A stretch of DNA of 64,000 nt from a virus. Each line of letters begins with the position of its first letter. Positions within the stretch are counted from its first letter, which is position 1. Shown here piece by piece: positions 1,219 through 9,403 of the stretch. The stretch is taken from IMG/VR virus record IMGVR_UViG_3300048011_000525, positions 1 through 64,000 of that record. One strand, given 5' to 3'. Below the pieces are notes generated by a model. It made no database searches and was not told the origin of the DNA. It saw only the letters and a program-made list of their open reading frames with translations. Position numbers and translations under genes: made by a program.

Positions 1219-1251
1219 GTATACAGTTAAACAATAAAGAGAGGGCTTAAT

Positions 1252-1531: not shown

Positions 1532-1570
1532 GTATATAACAGTTAGGGCAATATGTGGAGGGCACAGCCG

Positions 1571-2130: not shown

Positions 2131-2163
2131 TAAGAGTAAGTTAAACAAAGCGAGGGCAATAAG

Positions 2164-3000: not shown

Positions 3001-3032
3001 ATAAACACAATAAGAGATTAGGAGGGCATCCA

Positions 3033-3586: not shown

Positions 3587-4051
3587 ATGGCAACACGTTC
3601 AAACATCGCATACAAAACAGCAGAAGGCAAAATCCGCAGCGTCTACAGCCACTGGGATGGCTATGTAGCAAACAATGGTCGCATCCTAGAGGAGAGCTAC
3701 CAGGACCAAGCAAAGATTGAAGCATTGGTTGCACTAGGTAGCATCAGCAGCCTGGGAGCAGAACTAGGCGAGCAGCAGGACTTCAACGATCGCAGCACAC
3801 AACAAGACGATTGGACACTAGCATATCATCGTGACCGTGGTGAAGATTTGGTTGTTAGCGAATACGACGACATTCCAAGTTGGATCAACGACATGGAGGA
3901 ATACGCTTACCTGTGGAACGGCAAGGAATGGCTTGTAAACGATCACGGTGCTAAGGACGCAAACGGCTTTCCTGTGTTCGACTTGCTGTCAACTGTAGTG
4001 CCAATCGAACTAGCACGTATGGAGCAGCGCATCGCAGCAGCCGCAAATTAA
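3587..4051 (+). CDS. conserved phage protein with MATRSNIA start, 154 aa
   Basis: Starts behind AGAAGGGCAAACAAA. The N-terminus MATRSNIAYKTAEGKIRSV and the following VYSHWDGYVANNG are the hallmark of a widespread phage family of unknown function whose members begin MATRS.IA and carry a (Y/C)HWDGY motif. Length is normal for the family. Residues 95-125 are aromatic and acidic. It is transcribed alone from P5. The C-terminal codons carry CAGCCG (4038). Confidence 0.75.
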   Translation: MATRSNIAYKTAEGKIRSVYSHWDGYVANNGRILEESYQDQAKIEALVALGSISSLGAELGEQQDFNDRSTQQDDWTLAYHRDRGEDLVVSEYDDIPSWINDMEEYAYLWNGKEWLVNDHGAKDANGFPVFDLLSTVVPIELARMEQRIAAAAN

Positions 4052-4104: not shown

Positions 4105-4135
4105 ATATATAACAGTTAGGAAAGAGGGCAAACAA

Positions 4136-4952: not shown

Positions 4953-5029
4953 GGGCCTTTAGCTCAATTGGTTAGAGCACCGGACTCATAATCCGTAGGT
5001 TCCGAGTTCGAGTCTCGGAGGGCCCACCA
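4953..5029 (+). tRNA. tRNA with CAU anticodon, probably tRNA-Ile2
   Basis: Complete cloverleaf of 77 nt with encoded CCA; acceptor GGGCCTT/AGGGCCC, anticodon CAT at 4987-4989 in loop CTCATAA, T-loop TTCGAGT. CAU can be elongator Met or, after lysidine modification, Ile for AUA codons. The C4-G69 and C5-G68 pairs seen here are features of tRNA-Ile2 that TilS recognises, not of elongator tRNA-Met, so Ile2 is favoured. Confidence 0.9.
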
Positions 5030-5034
5030 AGTAA

Positions 5035-5111
5035 CTGCCCTTAGCTCAGCAGGATAGAGCAAGAGATTTCTAATCTCTAGGTCGGGGGTTCGAATCCCTC
5101 AGGGCAGGCCA
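5035..5111 (+). tRNA. tRNA-Arg (UCU)
   Basis: Acceptor CTGCCCT/AGGGCAG, anticodon stem AGAGA/TCTCT, anticodon TCT at 5069-5071, T-loop TTCGAAT, encoded CCA at 5109-5111. Reads AGA codons, which are frequent in the window's AT-rich genes. Confidence 0.93.
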
Positions 5112-5115
5112 ATTA

Positions 5116-5199
5116 GCCTCCGTGGTGGAATAGGTAGACACAAGGGACTTAAAATCCCTCGCTTATGGCGTCCCGGTTCGAGTCCGGGCGGAGGCACCA
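5116..5199 (+). tRNA. tRNA-Leu (UAA)
   Basis: Class II tRNA of 84 nt with a long variable arm (CGCTTATGGCG). Acceptor GCCTCCG/CGGAGGC, anticodon stem AGGGA/TCCCT, anticodon TAA at 5150-5152, encoded CCA. Reads UUA codons. Confidence 0.93.
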
Positions 5200-5200
5200 A

Positions 5201-5289
5201 GTTTAGGGAGTTGAGCAGCCGAACGAGCCGCCCTCACTCAAAGGTACCGCAGCGTATGCCCTCACGCTAAGGAACGCTCCTCCCTAAGC
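5201..5289 (+). ncRNA. candidate anti-RBS RNA downstream of the tRNAs
   Basis: GTTTAGGGAG (5201-5210) pairs with CTCCCTAAGC (5280-5289) over 10 bp, with one U-G wobble that would be C-A on the minus strand, so the plus strand is the RNA. Inside, TTGAG/CTCAA (5211-5215, 5237-5241) closes a loop holding GCCCTC (5230-5235), and AGCGT/ACGCT (5251-5255, 5264-5268) closes an eight-base loop ATGCCCTC (5256-5263). ATGCCCTC is the reverse complement of the early RBS GAGGGCAT. The RNA would be cut from the tRNA transcript. Small hairpins GCCC-TTT-GGGC (5288-5298) and GGTT-CCAG-AACC (5308-5319) follow. Confidence 0.55.
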
Positions 5290-5334
5290 CCTTTGGGCAG
5301 CAGCCGAGGTTCCAGAACCATCAGGCATCAGTTT

Positions 5335-5364
5335 ATTATAACACAGAGCAGCCGGGGTTGTCAA
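5335..5364 (-). promoter_or_regulatory. leftward promoter antisense to the RNA and tRNAs
   Basis: On the minus strand TTGACA (5359-5364) is preceded by AGG and followed after 18 bp by TATAAT (5335-5340), matching the early promoter class. It points left across 5201-5289 and the tRNAs and diverges from P8. No gene follows in that direction, so it would make an antisense RNA whose loops read GAGGGCAT. It may instead be an operator copy. Confidence 0.5.
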
Positions 5365-5408
5365 CCTAAAAATAACCAAAATAAAATTAAAAAATGGCAA
5401 ATAAAAGG

Positions 5409-5437
5409 TTGACAGTAACAGCAAACGAGGCTATACT
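5409..5437 (+). promoter_or_regulatory. early promoter P8
   Basis: TTGACA 5409-5414, 17-bp spacer, TATACT 5432-5437 in TATACTGTATA, then CAGTTA. Confidence 0.9.
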
Positions 5438-5473
5438 GTATACAGTTAAACAATAAAGCAAAGAGGGCAAACT

Positions 5474-5812
5474 ATGCTTACAATTACTAAAACTGGTTTT
5501 GAACAGAACGACGACTACACTAGCACTTTTTACGGTGTAGAAGGCGCGGTGACGCTTGCTGGCGACAGCTTATGGGGTGACACTGCGGGGCGAGTTGTTA
5601 ACGTTGAAGGCATTACTGTAACAGAAGAACAGTACGGTGAAGAGGCTGACGACAAGTACATGCACGTGACAGTGACACACGACAGCACGTGGGACATTTA
5701 CACTGACACTGCGTTTGCTGTAGCAATTAGCGAAGCGTTGGGCATGGACATTGACTTTACGGAGCAAGGCATGCAAGACGACGGACACGCGAGCATGGAA
5801 GTGTACAGTTAA
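5474..5812 (+). CDS. acidic early protein of unknown function, 112 aa
   Basis: Starts behind AGAGGGCAAACT. The 112-residue product is acidic and Thr/Asp-rich, with many GACAC/ACTGAC codon runs that give the DNA a repetitive look. No family motif. It lacks the CAGCCG motif found in most neighbours. Transcribed alone from P8. Confidence 0.7.
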   Translation: MLTITKTGFEQNDDYTSTFYGVEGAVTLAGDSLWGDTAGRVVNVEGITVTEEQYGEEADDKYMHVTVTHDSTWDIYTDTAFAVAISEALGMDIDFTEQGMQDDGHASMEVYS

Positions 5813-5831
5813 AAAAGTGGCAAAAAAGAGG

Positions 5832-5860
5832 TTGACAACGGCCTCTTTGTTTGCTATACT
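5832..5860 (+). promoter_or_regulatory. early promoter P9
   Basis: TTGACA 5832-5837, 17-bp spacer, TATACT 5855-5860 in TATACTGTATA, then TAACAGTTA. GAGG before and CCTC inside the spacer (5842) form a small inverted repeat around the -35. Confidence 0.9.
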
Positions 5861-5900
5861 GTATATAACAGTTAGGGCAATAAGTAGAAGGAACTACGCA

Positions 5901-6095
5901 ATGATCAAAGTATTCAACAGCGCATACCGTGAGTCGATCGAGCAGCCGAAGATGATTCCACTGGATGAAGTCAACATCGTAACACAGAACATCCACAACG
6001 GCGCTCCTTACATCTTGTTCGAGCACAAAGACTATCCGCTGGGCGCACTGAGCGCAACCTTCGACGGTGAGTATTGGGCTTGTGACCTTGATTGA
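5901..6095 (+). CDS. early protein of unknown function, 64 aa
   Basis: ATG 5901 follows GAAGGAACTACGCA; GGGCAA lies further up in the leader. The in-frame upstream ATG at 5751 is inside the previous gene and is rejected. The 64-residue product (MIKVFNSAYRESIEQPK...) ends with GEYWACDLD and is soluble; no family recognised. Confidence 0.65.
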   Translation: MIKVFNSAYRESIEQPKMIPLDEVNIVTQNIHNGAPYILFEHKDYPLGALSATFDGEYWACDLD

Positions 6096-6127
6096 TGATC
6101 CGTGTGATGATTGGTACCCATTAGGGG

Positions 6128-6156
6128 TTGACAAACCAAAGAAGTGACTGTATACT
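6128..6156 (+). promoter_or_regulatory. early promoter P10
   Basis: TTGACA 6128-6133, 17-bp spacer, TATACT 6151-6156 followed by GTAAGTATAACAATTAGG. Confidence 0.9.
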
Positions 6157-6187
6157 GTAAGTATAACAATTAGGAAAGAGGGCAAAC

Positions 6188-6457
6188 ATGGAAAAATCAA
6201 TTTACGAAGTAGGTGAACAGCACAAACAACTAGCAGCCGTTGGTAGACGCATGATGGACATGAGCGAGTATGCCAATTGCAAGGGCATGAAGGATGAAGA
6301 CTTCAAATTGCTCAACGACATGAGTCACGTAGGCAACCTGCTTACCAAATTGGGCAATGCGTTTGGTCCTAAGCTGGACAAAGACTTTACAGCCGAGGAT
6401 ATGGATTTAATTGCTCGTTTTATGAAAAAAGAGATTGACATTCCGCAGATGCGGTAG
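6188..6457 (+). CDS. early helical protein of unknown function, 89 aa
   Basis: Starts directly after GAGGGCAAAC. The 89-residue product looks all-helical and Met-rich, with basic and acidic patches in alternation; no family recognised. Its last seven codons contain the -35 box of promoter P11 (ATT GAC ATT), so coding and promoter sequence overlap. Confidence 0.7.
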   Translation: MEKSIYEVGEQHKQLAAVGRRMMDMSEYANCKGMKDEDFKLLNDMSHVGNLLTKLGNAFGPKLDKDFTAEDMDLIARFMKKEIDIPQMR

Positions 6458-6463
6458 TATACT
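6435..6463 (+). promoter_or_regulatory. early promoter P11, inside a gene end
   Basis: TTGACA 6435-6440 lies in the 3' end of the preceding gene; 17-bp spacer, TATACT 6458-6463 starts one base after its stop, then GTATATAACAATTAGGG. Confidence 0.88.
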
Positions 6464-6495
6464 GTATATAACAATTAGGGCAAAGGGCAAAACAA

Positions 6496-6633
6496 ATGAT
6501 TAAAACACTAGGTTGGTTAACAGTAATTGGAATAGGTCTTTACACAGGGATCCTACAGGCCATGTTGATATTTGCTGGTGCTGCGGTTATTTGGGTTGGT
6601 ACTTTGCTCGCTAGTTTGGGAGGCGCGATATGA
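6496..6633 (+). CDS. two-helix membrane peptide, 45 aa
   Basis: ATG 6496 follows AAAGGGCAAAACAA from promoter P11. The 45-residue product is almost wholly hydrophobic with two likely helices (about residues 6-20 and 22-40) and one Lys near the start, so it should insert in the inner membrane. Its stop overlaps the next start as ATGA (6630-6633), which supports translation. Function unknown; small early membrane proteins are a repeated theme here. Confidence 0.65.
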   Translation: MIKTLGWLTVIGIGLYTGILQAMLIFAGAAVIWVGTLLASLGGAI

Positions 6634-6863
6634 AATGGGTTTTGATAGCAAGCGTTCTTAACTGGCAACCAGTATATGACGATCAGAAGACCTGTCAACT
6701 AGCAGCCGAAGAGCTCAAGAAGGTATATTACCAAGAAGTCGCTGCGTGTATTCCAAAGCCGACTAACACAGCCGGTGAGAATGAGAATGTGGACCGCATG
6801 TTCGAACAGTTCATGAATATGGTAAAAGAACTACAAAAAGAAGTTGACAACGGCAACAACTGA
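6630..6863 (+). CDS. small early protein with hydrophobic N-terminus, 77 aa
   Basis: Begins in an ATGA overlap with the membrane peptide. The first ten residues (MKWVLIASVL) are hydrophobic, then comes NWQPVYDDQKTCQLAAEEL, a pattern seen in many small phage proteins, with two cysteines (C22 and C40) that could pair in the periplasm. The C-terminal half is charged and helical. The last codons hold the -35 of promoter P12. Possibly secreted or membrane-tethered; function unknown. Confidence 0.65.
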   Translation: MKWVLIASVLNWQPVYDDQKTCQLAAEELKKVYYQEVAACIPKPTNTAGENENVDRMFEQFMNMVKELQKEVDNGNN

Positions 6864-6872
6864 ACGTATACT
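6844..6872 (+). promoter_or_regulatory. early promoter P12, inside a gene end
   Basis: TTGACA 6844-6849 lies within the last codons of the preceding gene; 17-bp spacer spans its stop; TATACT 6867-6872, then ACATATATAAATTAAC. Confidence 0.88.
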
Positions 6873-6907
6873 ACATATATAAATTAACTTAACGCTGTGA
6901 GGGCACA

Positions 6908-7912
6908 ATGACAAACATTACAATCAAAGAAGGCACATACAAAATCCGTGGTAAAGACGTAGACCTATCAGGTATGACTTTTCCACTAGTAGAAGAATTC
7001 AAAGTAGGAGCACGAGGTGGCTACGTAACAGTAGACGGTTCAGCAGTTGCTGGCTTTCCACAGCGTAACATCAAGATCATGTGCGCAAGTGCAGATGACT
7101 ATGCCCAAACTGATGCTGCAATTAATACAGCAGCAGTAGAGGAGAGTGACGAAGAAGTTATCGAACGTATCCGTGAACGCTTTGACATGTTGAAGGACAT
7201 GACCAAAGCAGTCAAGAAAGGTGCTGTGCGAGCTATGATCGTTTCAGGACCTCCAGGTGTTGGTAAGTCGCATGGTGTAGAAGAAGTACTAGAGCGTTAC
7301 GACACACTAGAACATCTAGGTGGTTCCTCTAAGTATACAATTGTTAAAGGTGCAATGAGCCCAATCGGACTCTACTGTAAGCTGTTCAACTACGCAGACA
7401 AAGACAACGTTATCGTGTTCGATGACTGTGATGCGATCTTCGAAGAGCCACTTGCACTTAATATTTTAAAAGCTGCTCTAGACAGCAAGAAGAAACGTAC
7501 TATTCACTGGAACACAGACAGTTTCAAGTTGCGTAATGAAGGTGTGCCGGATTCATTCGAGTTCAAAGGTTCAGCGATCTTTATTACCAACCTTGACTTC
7601 CATGACGTAAAGAGCAAGAAGATACGCTCGCACTTGGAAGCACTAGAGTCACGTTGTCACTATATGGATTTAACTATCCACTCTGAGCGCGACAAGATGC
7701 TCAGAATTGCACAAGTCATCAAGGACGGAATGCTAGATAGTTATAAGGTGTCCGATGAAGTCAAAGAAGAAATCATTGATTTCGTGGACATTAATAAGAA
7801 GCGACTAAGAGAACTGTCATTGCGTACAGTACTTAAGGTAGCCGACTTAGCAGTTGCATTTCCAGATCGTTGGGAAGCAATGGCTGAGAACACTGTTATG
7901 AAACATTCTTAA
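6908..7912 (+). CDS. AAA+ ATPase, 334 aa
   Basis: Starts behind GTGAGGGCACA. Walker A GPPGVGKS (114-121) and Walker B VIVFDDCD (168-175) are intact, and ITNLDF near residue 225 fits sensor 1, so this is an active P-loop ATPase of the single-domain AAA family carried by many T4-like marine phages. Its substrate is not known; the N-terminal 80 residues carry no recognised domain. It is the longest early gene and almost alone in lacking CAGCCG. Its stop codon lies in the loop of the first of three hairpins that form its 3' UTR. Confidence 0.85.
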   Translation: MTNITIKEGTYKIRGKDVDLSGMTFPLVEEFKVGARGGYVTVDGSAVAGFPQRNIKIMCASADDYAQTDAAINTAAVEESDEEVIERIRERFDMLKDMTKAVKKGAVRAMIVSGPPGVGKSHGVEEVLERYDTLEHLGGSSKYTIVKGAMSPIGLYCKLFNYADKDNVIVFDDCDAIFEEPLALNILKAALDSKKKRTIHWNTDSFKLRNEGVPDSFEFKGSAIFITNLDFHDVKSKKIRSHLEALESRCHYMDLTIHSERDKMLRIAQVIKDGMLDSYKVSDEVKEEIIDFVDINKKRLRELSLRTVLKVADLAVAFPDRWEAMAENTVMKHS

Positions 7913-8034
7913 TGCCCTCAAGAATCATAACAGTTCAAGTGTTAAGCAGGCACCCCTCATAGCCCTCACGCTCTGCTAACACATGCGCCCGGAGTAGGAC
8001 ATGCCCTCGTCCAATACACTCCGGGCTTTTTTTT
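7905..8034 (+). ncRNA. 3' UTR with three ATGCCCTC-type hairpins ending in a terminator
   Basis: Hairpin 1: ATTCTT/AAGAAT (7905-7910, 7920-7925), loop AATGCCCTC, spanning the stop codon of the ATPase gene. Hairpin 2: GTGTTAAGCAG (7939-7949, one bulged A) with CTGCTAACAC (7973-7982), loop holding GCCCTC (7962-7967). Hairpin 3: GCCCGGAGT/ACTCCGGGC (7987-7995, 8018-8026) with inner GGAC/GTCC (7997-8000, 8009-8012) and loop ATGCCCTC (8001-8008), then eight T. The stems are unrelated in sequence but the loops are the same and complement the early RBS GAGGGCA. Probably a 3'-UTR-derived regulatory RNA. Confidence 0.6.
7987..8034 (+). terminator. intrinsic terminator of the ATPase transcript
   Basis: Perfect 9-bp GC-rich stem GCCCGGAGT/ACTCCGGGC followed by T8 (8027-8034). 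The stem carries a second hairpin, GGAC-ATGCCCTC-GTCC, within it. Confidence 0.85.
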
Positions 8035-8055
8035 GATCTTTTTTTGATTTAGGGG

Positions 8056-8082
8056 TTGACACAGCCGCCATTTGATTATAAG
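8056..8082 (+). promoter_or_regulatory. early promoter P13
   Basis: TTGACA 8056-8061; -10 is either TATAAG 8077-8082 (15 bp) or a displaced box in AGCTGTATATAACAG. The spacer holds CAGCCG. The least regular of the set. Confidence 0.7.
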
Positions 8083-8120
8083 CTGTATATAACAGTTAAC
8101 AAAGCAAGAGGGCAAAAGCA

Positions 8121-8566: not shown

Positions 8567-8599
8567 GTATATAACAGTTAAGCAAATGAGGGCAAACAA

Positions 8600-9039: not shown

Positions 9040-9071
9040 GTATGTATAAGTTAAAGCAAAGAGGGCACAAT

Positions 9072-9371: not shown

Positions 9372-9403
9372 GTATATATAAATTAACGTAGAGGGCTAAA
9401 CAA

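Follow-up and report, generated by a model that had tools for sequence, protein, structure and literature searches.

A hairpin array in the 3′ untranslated region of a phage ATPase gene matched to the early ribosome-binding site: a candidate multivalent antisense RNA

The DNA considered here, a stretch of 64,000 nucleotides (the window), comprises positions 1–64,000 of a virus record with 115,582 bases (IMGVR_UViG_3300048011_000525). In the 3′ untranslated region (3′UTR) of an AAA ATPase gene it carries an array of hairpins, the loops of which contain GCCCTC, the complement of GAGGGC, the ribosome-binding site (RBS) of the early genes of this phage; further loops of the same kind are predicted in an element that follows a tRNA cluster. 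The best explanation is probably that a multivalent 3′UTR-derived antisense RNA pairs with the early RBSs and represses them. Comparison of sequences establishes the predicted structures, the conserved loops on variable stems, their complementarity to an early RBS that is specific to the phage and the absence of both array and RBS in other relatives, and loop–RBS pairing is well supported at this level; repression, RNA processing and timing are what we infer.

The term 'early' is used as a label for the plus-strand genes at 1.2–9.4 kb and was given on the basis of promoter type and layout, these genes being served by sigma70-type promoters. Their RBS is GAGGGC (table 1), replaced by AAGGGC in the gene at 3587, while no gene at 11–64 kb has it, the RBSs there being of the AGGAG, GGAGA or AAGGA type. 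GAGGGC occurs 15 times in the 115,582-base record, nearly always as an RBS of the early cluster. An earlier note on this DNA, made from its letters alone, had correctly recognized the early RBS, but the positions that it listed for it are those of start codons, the RBSs lying just upstream.

On the plus strand of the window ATGCCCTC is found at 5256–5263, 7912–7919 and 8001–8008, as the earlier note had reported, and the surrounding stems differ in the way that it had described (AGCGT/ACGCT, ATTCTT/AAGAAT and GGAC/GTCC, respectively), the loop on the second of them being actually A plus ATGCCCTC. One further copy, on the minus strand, is an RBS. The four copies over both strands compare with 0.84 expected in shuffles, and four were reached by one of 100 shuffles. 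GCCCTC is additionally present on the plus strand at 5230 and 7962. Its placement in loops at these sites also held, with the refinement that the loop of the former copy has 9 nt, is closed by a stem of 3 bp and belongs to a multibranch fold, and that the loop of the latter is large. Every one of the five GCCCTC copies on the plus strand of the window is inside one of the two noncoding elements, in a predicted hairpin loop, and all fall in 228 of 64,000 bases (chance ~6e-13, calculated post hoc); in the whole record, five of the six plus-strand copies are inside the two elements.

The array directly adjoins the stop codon of the ATPase gene, which is enclosed in hairpin 1, the 5′ arm of this hairpin being made of the last codons, and it shares the terminator of the mRNA (7987–8034), both being traits of 3′UTR-derived small RNAs (sRNAs). 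The ATPase itself is similar to phage genes annotated nrdC.10. The folding energy of 7895–8040 corresponds to a z value of −5.2 against shuffles, with none of 200 shuffles as good. Rfam covariance models gave no match up to E=5 in 5180–8060, and assignment to a known RNA family was dropped for this reason.

ATPase relatives were collected from viral contigs and from contigs of metagenome-assembled genomes, and the corresponding loci are indicated by L and a number. The array clade is a family of large phages from aquatic habitats. The array is present at every locus of this clade that was read past the ATPase stop codon, with one to five GCCCTC copies each, and the identity of the ATPase among array phages goes down to ~61%. 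In 64 related loci the mean z value of the array folding energy is −6.0, all 64 being below −2, and the 175 GCCCTC copies that they contain have a mean unpaired probability of 0.88 versus 0.21 for other GC-rich hexamers there. Near the ATPase stop codon 167 GCCCTC copies were counted, compared with at most 60 for permuted hexamers, those overlapping the motif. Conservation is limited to the hexamer, with flanking positions at 0.01–0.6 bit (most <0.1 bit) and stem sequences of the arrays essentially unconserved. These 64 loci, along with the tRNA-linked site in 14 phages, confirm what had been concluded from the window, namely, that the loops are constant, the stems variable and the motif complementary to the early RBS, so that the interpretation of the earlier note in terms of a base-pairing RNA is supported. 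A chance origin of the loops is ruled out by the relatives. A scan of viral contigs by the array DNA pattern returned the known array phages and two chance matches (L176 and L185), and scanning whole loci for loop k-mers without bias gave too much noise to be of use. Among the individual arrays, that of L025 is parted from the ATPase stop codon by an insertion (2189–2640) and is otherwise kept, and those of L012, L016, L052, L065 and L149 include an additional small hairpin with a CCATTAGA-like loop, the CCATT of which is complementary to AATGG around start codons.

The structure of hairpin 1 is backed by covariation of its outer helix, which scored 0.257 versus 0.069 in shuffled alignments (reached by none of 500, with shuffles that ignore relatedness) and at most 0.05 with slid partners; eight double-changed cells were found for the outer helix of the stop-codon hairpin. 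The covariation proposed by the earlier note as a check in related phages was detected within the helix and not between RBS and loop, for which no co-change was seen. That the hairpins are ordinary terminators or 3′-end protectors, with loops alike through descent, would agree with the terminator nature of the final hairpin of the array and of part of the tRNA trailers. However, several hairpins per array are not terminators, termination does not need loop identity, and the stems have been replaced with the loop hexamer alone being kept. This is therefore the least probable of the alternatives, and we take it, like chance, to be excluded by the comparative data.

In relatives of 155–275 kb, GAGGGC-N2-9-ATG is concentrated on one strand, within one block of ~10 kb (19 of 21 matches in 0.5–10.5 kb of a 155-kb relative; 11 of 13 in 0.5–7.2 kb of a 268-kb relative), and sense-strand GCCCTC is scarce in the early block outside the two elements. 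The base following AGGG is C in 319 of the 431 initiation regions of array phages versus three of 13 in array-less relatives, and in eight of 23 on the other strand. This C has no partner in the 16S rRNA tail; since it is nevertheless conserved, something else must conserve it, and the loops are the obvious candidate. Array-less relatives have almost no GAGGGC-type RBS and use AAGGAG-type sites. L070 has neither array nor such an RBS, though its ATPase is 59–66% identical to array-phage ATPases, a similarity close to that of some array phages. Among named phages, PA5oct (L088) and Cronobacter LPCS28 (L089) encode the ATPase but the gene is not followed by an array, and none of 22 PA5oct genes has an AGGGC site. 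As expected for an sRNA directed against Shine–Dalgarno (SD) sequences, the loops are predicted to be accessible and are complementary to the SD sequences of the targets. The mean energy of the duplexes between loop and translation initiation region (TIR) is −16.5 kcal/mol for 15 early genes versus −7.7 kcal/mol for 59 others (P 2e-9), a contrast that is partly circular in that it restates the motif.

The conserved C also bears on the possibility that the loops are bound by, or occupy, a partner other than mRNA, for example a GCCCUC-specific RNA-binding protein of phage or host, as in a CsrB-like sponge, the match to the RBS being secondary. A multi-hairpin array with one repeated loop is indeed the design of CsrB and RsmZ. 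However, a protein sponge repeats the target sequence whereas the loops found here are its complement, and the RBS retains a C unneeded for 16S pairing, so that we regard this alternative as quite improbable.

With respect to the tRNA-linked element, 23 loci with tRNA genes were examined, and in 14 of them the last tRNA is directly followed by a hairpin that has a long stem and GCCCT(C) 25–37 nt past CCA. The hairpin follows Leu, Met or Arg, whichever is last, and its stems are unrelated between phages. In L008, L011, L016 and L029 a T-run is found after the hairpin, which can therefore end the tRNA transcript. The window has, beyond the element, a perfect minus-strand sigma70 promoter (table 1), and the same kind of promoter is found after the tRNA trailer hairpin in L005, L007, L014 and L065. 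For these five the element might be transcribed either way; a transcript from this promoter would be antisense and display GAGGGC, and could be a counter-RNA.

In the mechanism that we favour, the ATPase 3′UTR with its intrinsic terminator would yield a noncoding RNA of ~140 nt (7892–8034) with GCCCUC open in each hairpin loop, and the trailer at the 3′ end of the tRNA cluster (5203–5287) would be a second source of such loops. The hairpin array may be freed, or be stable, as an RNA, or may be active from the mRNA end. Its loops would form 6–8 bp with GAGGGC(A), the RBS limited to early phage genes, and pairing would stop loading of the 30S subunit in trans. Being co-transcribed with an early gene, the RNA would accumulate with early transcription, leading to a delayed negative feedback that would lower early translation and that late genes, with their AGGAG-type sites, would escape. 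The array could additionally act in cis on the ATPase mRNA. An autoregulatory role only, with the 3′UTR loops acting mainly in cis on the GAGGGC of the ATPase mRNA, has in its favour that the array is always on this mRNA, that the best predicted pairing is with the ATPase RBS, and the precedent of Staphylococcus aureus icaR, in which UCCCCUG of the 3′UTR is directed against its own SD sequence (PMC3868564). One loop would be enough for a cis device, however, whereas these arrays have two to five; the same loop is found in the tRNA-linked elements, remote from such an mRNA; and the same RBS is retained by more than 10 other early genes. By taking into account the several loops per array, the second source at the tRNAs and the many genes sharing the site, action in trans is favoured, and autoregulation alone appears unlikely.

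A related question is whose genes would be silenced. The c4 RNA of phages P1 and P7 has loops complementary to sequence surrounding an RBS of the phage and blocks translation (PMC12197685); it has a single target (ant, in the antirepressor operon of a temperate phage) and a role in immunity, whereas here a whole early regulon is faced by multiple identical loops. With c4 as precedent, the RNA might chiefly silence the early genes of incoming GAGGGC phages, and, as more than 60 diverse phages have the same RBS and loop, the RNA made by any of them would have all of them as targets. Such control of superinfecting or competing phages is hardly probable as the main function: the phage's own genes bear the same sites, making self-regulation unavoidable, and no sign of lysogeny genes was met, though no search was aimed at them.

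Several observations weigh against the regulation of early RBSs by the loops. No correlation is seen in 52 array phages between how many loops an array has and what fraction of sites is AGGGC (rho 0.10, P 0.47). In L032 only two of 33 sites are AGGGC and most are GAGGAGCA, yet four intact loops are present; GAGGAGCA is still able to pair with them given one bulged A. L062 and L091 use GGAGA sites and only degenerate loops remain. The earlier note had named independent change of RBS and loop as the outcome that would speak against it, and this is in part what is seen, since L032 and L062/L091 have lost most GAGGGC RBSs and kept GCCCTC loops (degenerate in L062/L091). Compensatory changes of RBS and loop were sought in L032, L062, L116, L122 and L133 and none was found, the loops staying GCCCT(C), and no array with TGCTCC loops was found in L032. 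Because the hexamer is invariant, RBS pairing is backed by joint conservation and presence rather than by covariation, and the contrast between phages with and without the array may reflect a single evolutionary event. As for the tRNA-linked element, that of the window is without a T-run and 5200–5300 alone folds no better than shuffles (z −1.5; 19 of 200 shuffles), so that the element rests on comparative evidence. Finally, all support derives from sequence and its comparison. As a separate observation, ACTCC is found a few bases upstream of the GGAGA RBS in many early genes of L062 and L091, the phages with degenerated arrays, and a local ACTCC/GGAGA hairpin could hide the RBS in cis.

The closest known systems are the alpha-r14 (NfeR1) and cuckoo (CcsR1-4) RNAs of Alphaproteobacteria, made of hairpins with one ultraconserved anti-SD loop motif on unrelated stems, the CcsR RNAs deriving from the 3′ portion of an mRNA that encodes a protein and has an intrinsic terminator at the end (PMC10746234, PMC10253847). 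The 64 arrays similarly repeat a single loop motif over several hairpins whose stems are unlike one another. However, alpha-r14 and cuckoo RNAs have CCUCCUCCC in every loop, and CCTCCTCC is in none of the 64 arrays, the core of which is GCCCTC; CCUCCUCCC targets the SD sequences of host genes in general, whereas the phage GCCCUC is matched to an early RBS specific to the phage; and the associated gene is a DUF1127 gene there and an ATPase gene here. The present array is carried by a phage, the early regulon of which would be its target. The record encodes a tail sheath and further virion proteins, which identifies the locus as virus-borne rather than as a host-encoded alphaproteobacterial one. 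The tail sheath shares ~42% identity with its counterparts in PA5oct and Atu_ph07; the best match of a protein to a named phage stays below 60% identity, and no cultured representative was found. A C-rich motif of the icaR 3′UTR of S. aureus pairs with the SD sequence and blocks ribosome loading (PMC3868564), as does the C-rich loop of RsaA-type sRNAs (PMC3961350); these are bacterial, with a single or few targets and no array matched to a private RBS. In Escherichia coli, the regulatory RNA 3′ETS-leuZ is likewise derived from a tRNA trailer (PMC8166272), but it sponges host sRNAs while the phage trailer loop matches phage early RBSs. T4 RegA is a phage factor that represses ~30 mRNAs at their initiation regions (PMC3014915), the same outcome as proposed here, RegA being a protein acting on AU-rich sites where the present factor would be an RNA. 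Full-text searches of the open-access literature did not turn up any phage RNA described as matching the RBS of one gene class. Thus, the physics is known, and the target, scale and setting are new.

Table 1. Positions in the window of the two noncoding elements, their promoters and the early ribosome-binding sites.
Feature	Position	Strand	Remark
tRNA cluster Met(CAT), Arg(TCT), Leu(TAA)	4953..5199	+	
tRNA-linked element	5203..5287	+	12-bp closing stem, two hairpins; equivalents after last tRNA in 13 relatives
Loop CCGCCCTCA of tRNA-linked element	5228-5236	+	
Loop ATGCCCTC of tRNA-linked element	5256-5263	+	
Perfect sigma70 promoter, TTGACA-18-TATAAT	5335..5364	-	aims back into tRNA-linked element and tRNA cluster
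sigma70-type promoter, TTGACA-17-TATACT	6844..6872	+	ATPase-array transcription unit
AAA ATPase gene, 334 aa, phrog_1250	6908..7912	+	array carried in its 3′UTR
Array hairpin 1, loop AATGCCCTC	7892..7934	+	encloses stop codon; outer helix covaries in 16 phages
Array hairpin 2, stem GTGTTA.GCAG/CTGC.TAACAC	7939..7982	+	large loop with CCCCTC and AGCCCTCA; counterpart in most relatives
Array hairpin 3, intrinsic terminator (GCCCGGAGT/ACTCCGGGC + T8)	7987..8034	+	internal hairpin GGAC-ATGCCCTC-GTCC
Early RBS GAGGGC	1241..1246	+	gene start 1252
Early RBS GAGGGC	1558..1563	+	gene start 1571
Early RBS GAGGGC	2152..2157	+	gene start 2164
Early RBS GAGGGC	3022..3027	+	gene start 3033
Early RBS GAGGGC	4124..4129	+	gene start 4136
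Early RBS GAGGGC	5463..5468	+	gene start 5474
Early RBS GAGGGC	6178..6183	+	gene start 6188
RBS GAGGGC of ATPase gene	6899..6904	+	TIR with strongest predicted loop pairing, -20.9 kcal/mol
Early RBS GAGGGC	8108..8113	+	gene start 8121
Early RBS GAGGGC	8588..8593	+	gene start 8600
Early RBS GAGGGC	9061..9066	+	gene start 9072
Early RBS GAGGGC	9391..9396	+	gene start 9404

Two other noncoding elements were met. The first, ACGGGAGGGCACGGAGCNCTGA, is conserved at L018:9354(+), L039:179(-), L047:6092(-), L201:2561(+) and L202:3210(-), L201 being the same contig as L133 and L202 the same as L116; most copies have promoter-like sequence just upstream, and all six viral contigs bearing the element are array-phage contigs. 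A short RNA with GGGAGGGCACGGAGC as an RBS decoy was considered and rejected, as its AGGGC is paired with GCYCU of its own hairpin; this pairing is found in the ACGGGAGGGCACGGAGCNCTGA element. The second is a minus-strand leader with CTCCCGATG at L028:1129(-), L034:6274(-), L044:273(-), L033:7601(-) and, in the window, 1035(-). In L028, L034 and L044 it lies just after TATAATAAACTACG of a strong promoter and, with no obvious gene behind it, the leader is a further noncoding RNA candidate.

A broader proposal, for which we see the chances as evenly balanced, is that of a private translation code, in which GAGGGC would mark early genes only, and two RNA sources with multivalent loops would switch off or buffer this class in trans, some phages perhaps adding an antisense counter-RNA with GAGGGC loops; the array would then be the RNA equivalent of T4 RegA. 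The shut-off of early protein synthesis in lytic phages has so far been explained mostly by transcription switches and by proteins such as RegA. If the present reading is true, a conserved phage RNA fitting the RBS of one gene class would constitute a regulon-wide, RNA-only switch, it would explain why a non-optimal RBS is maintained with a conserved GC that is unpaired to 16S rRNA, and it would offer a ready-made orthogonal pair of RBS and antisense RNA.

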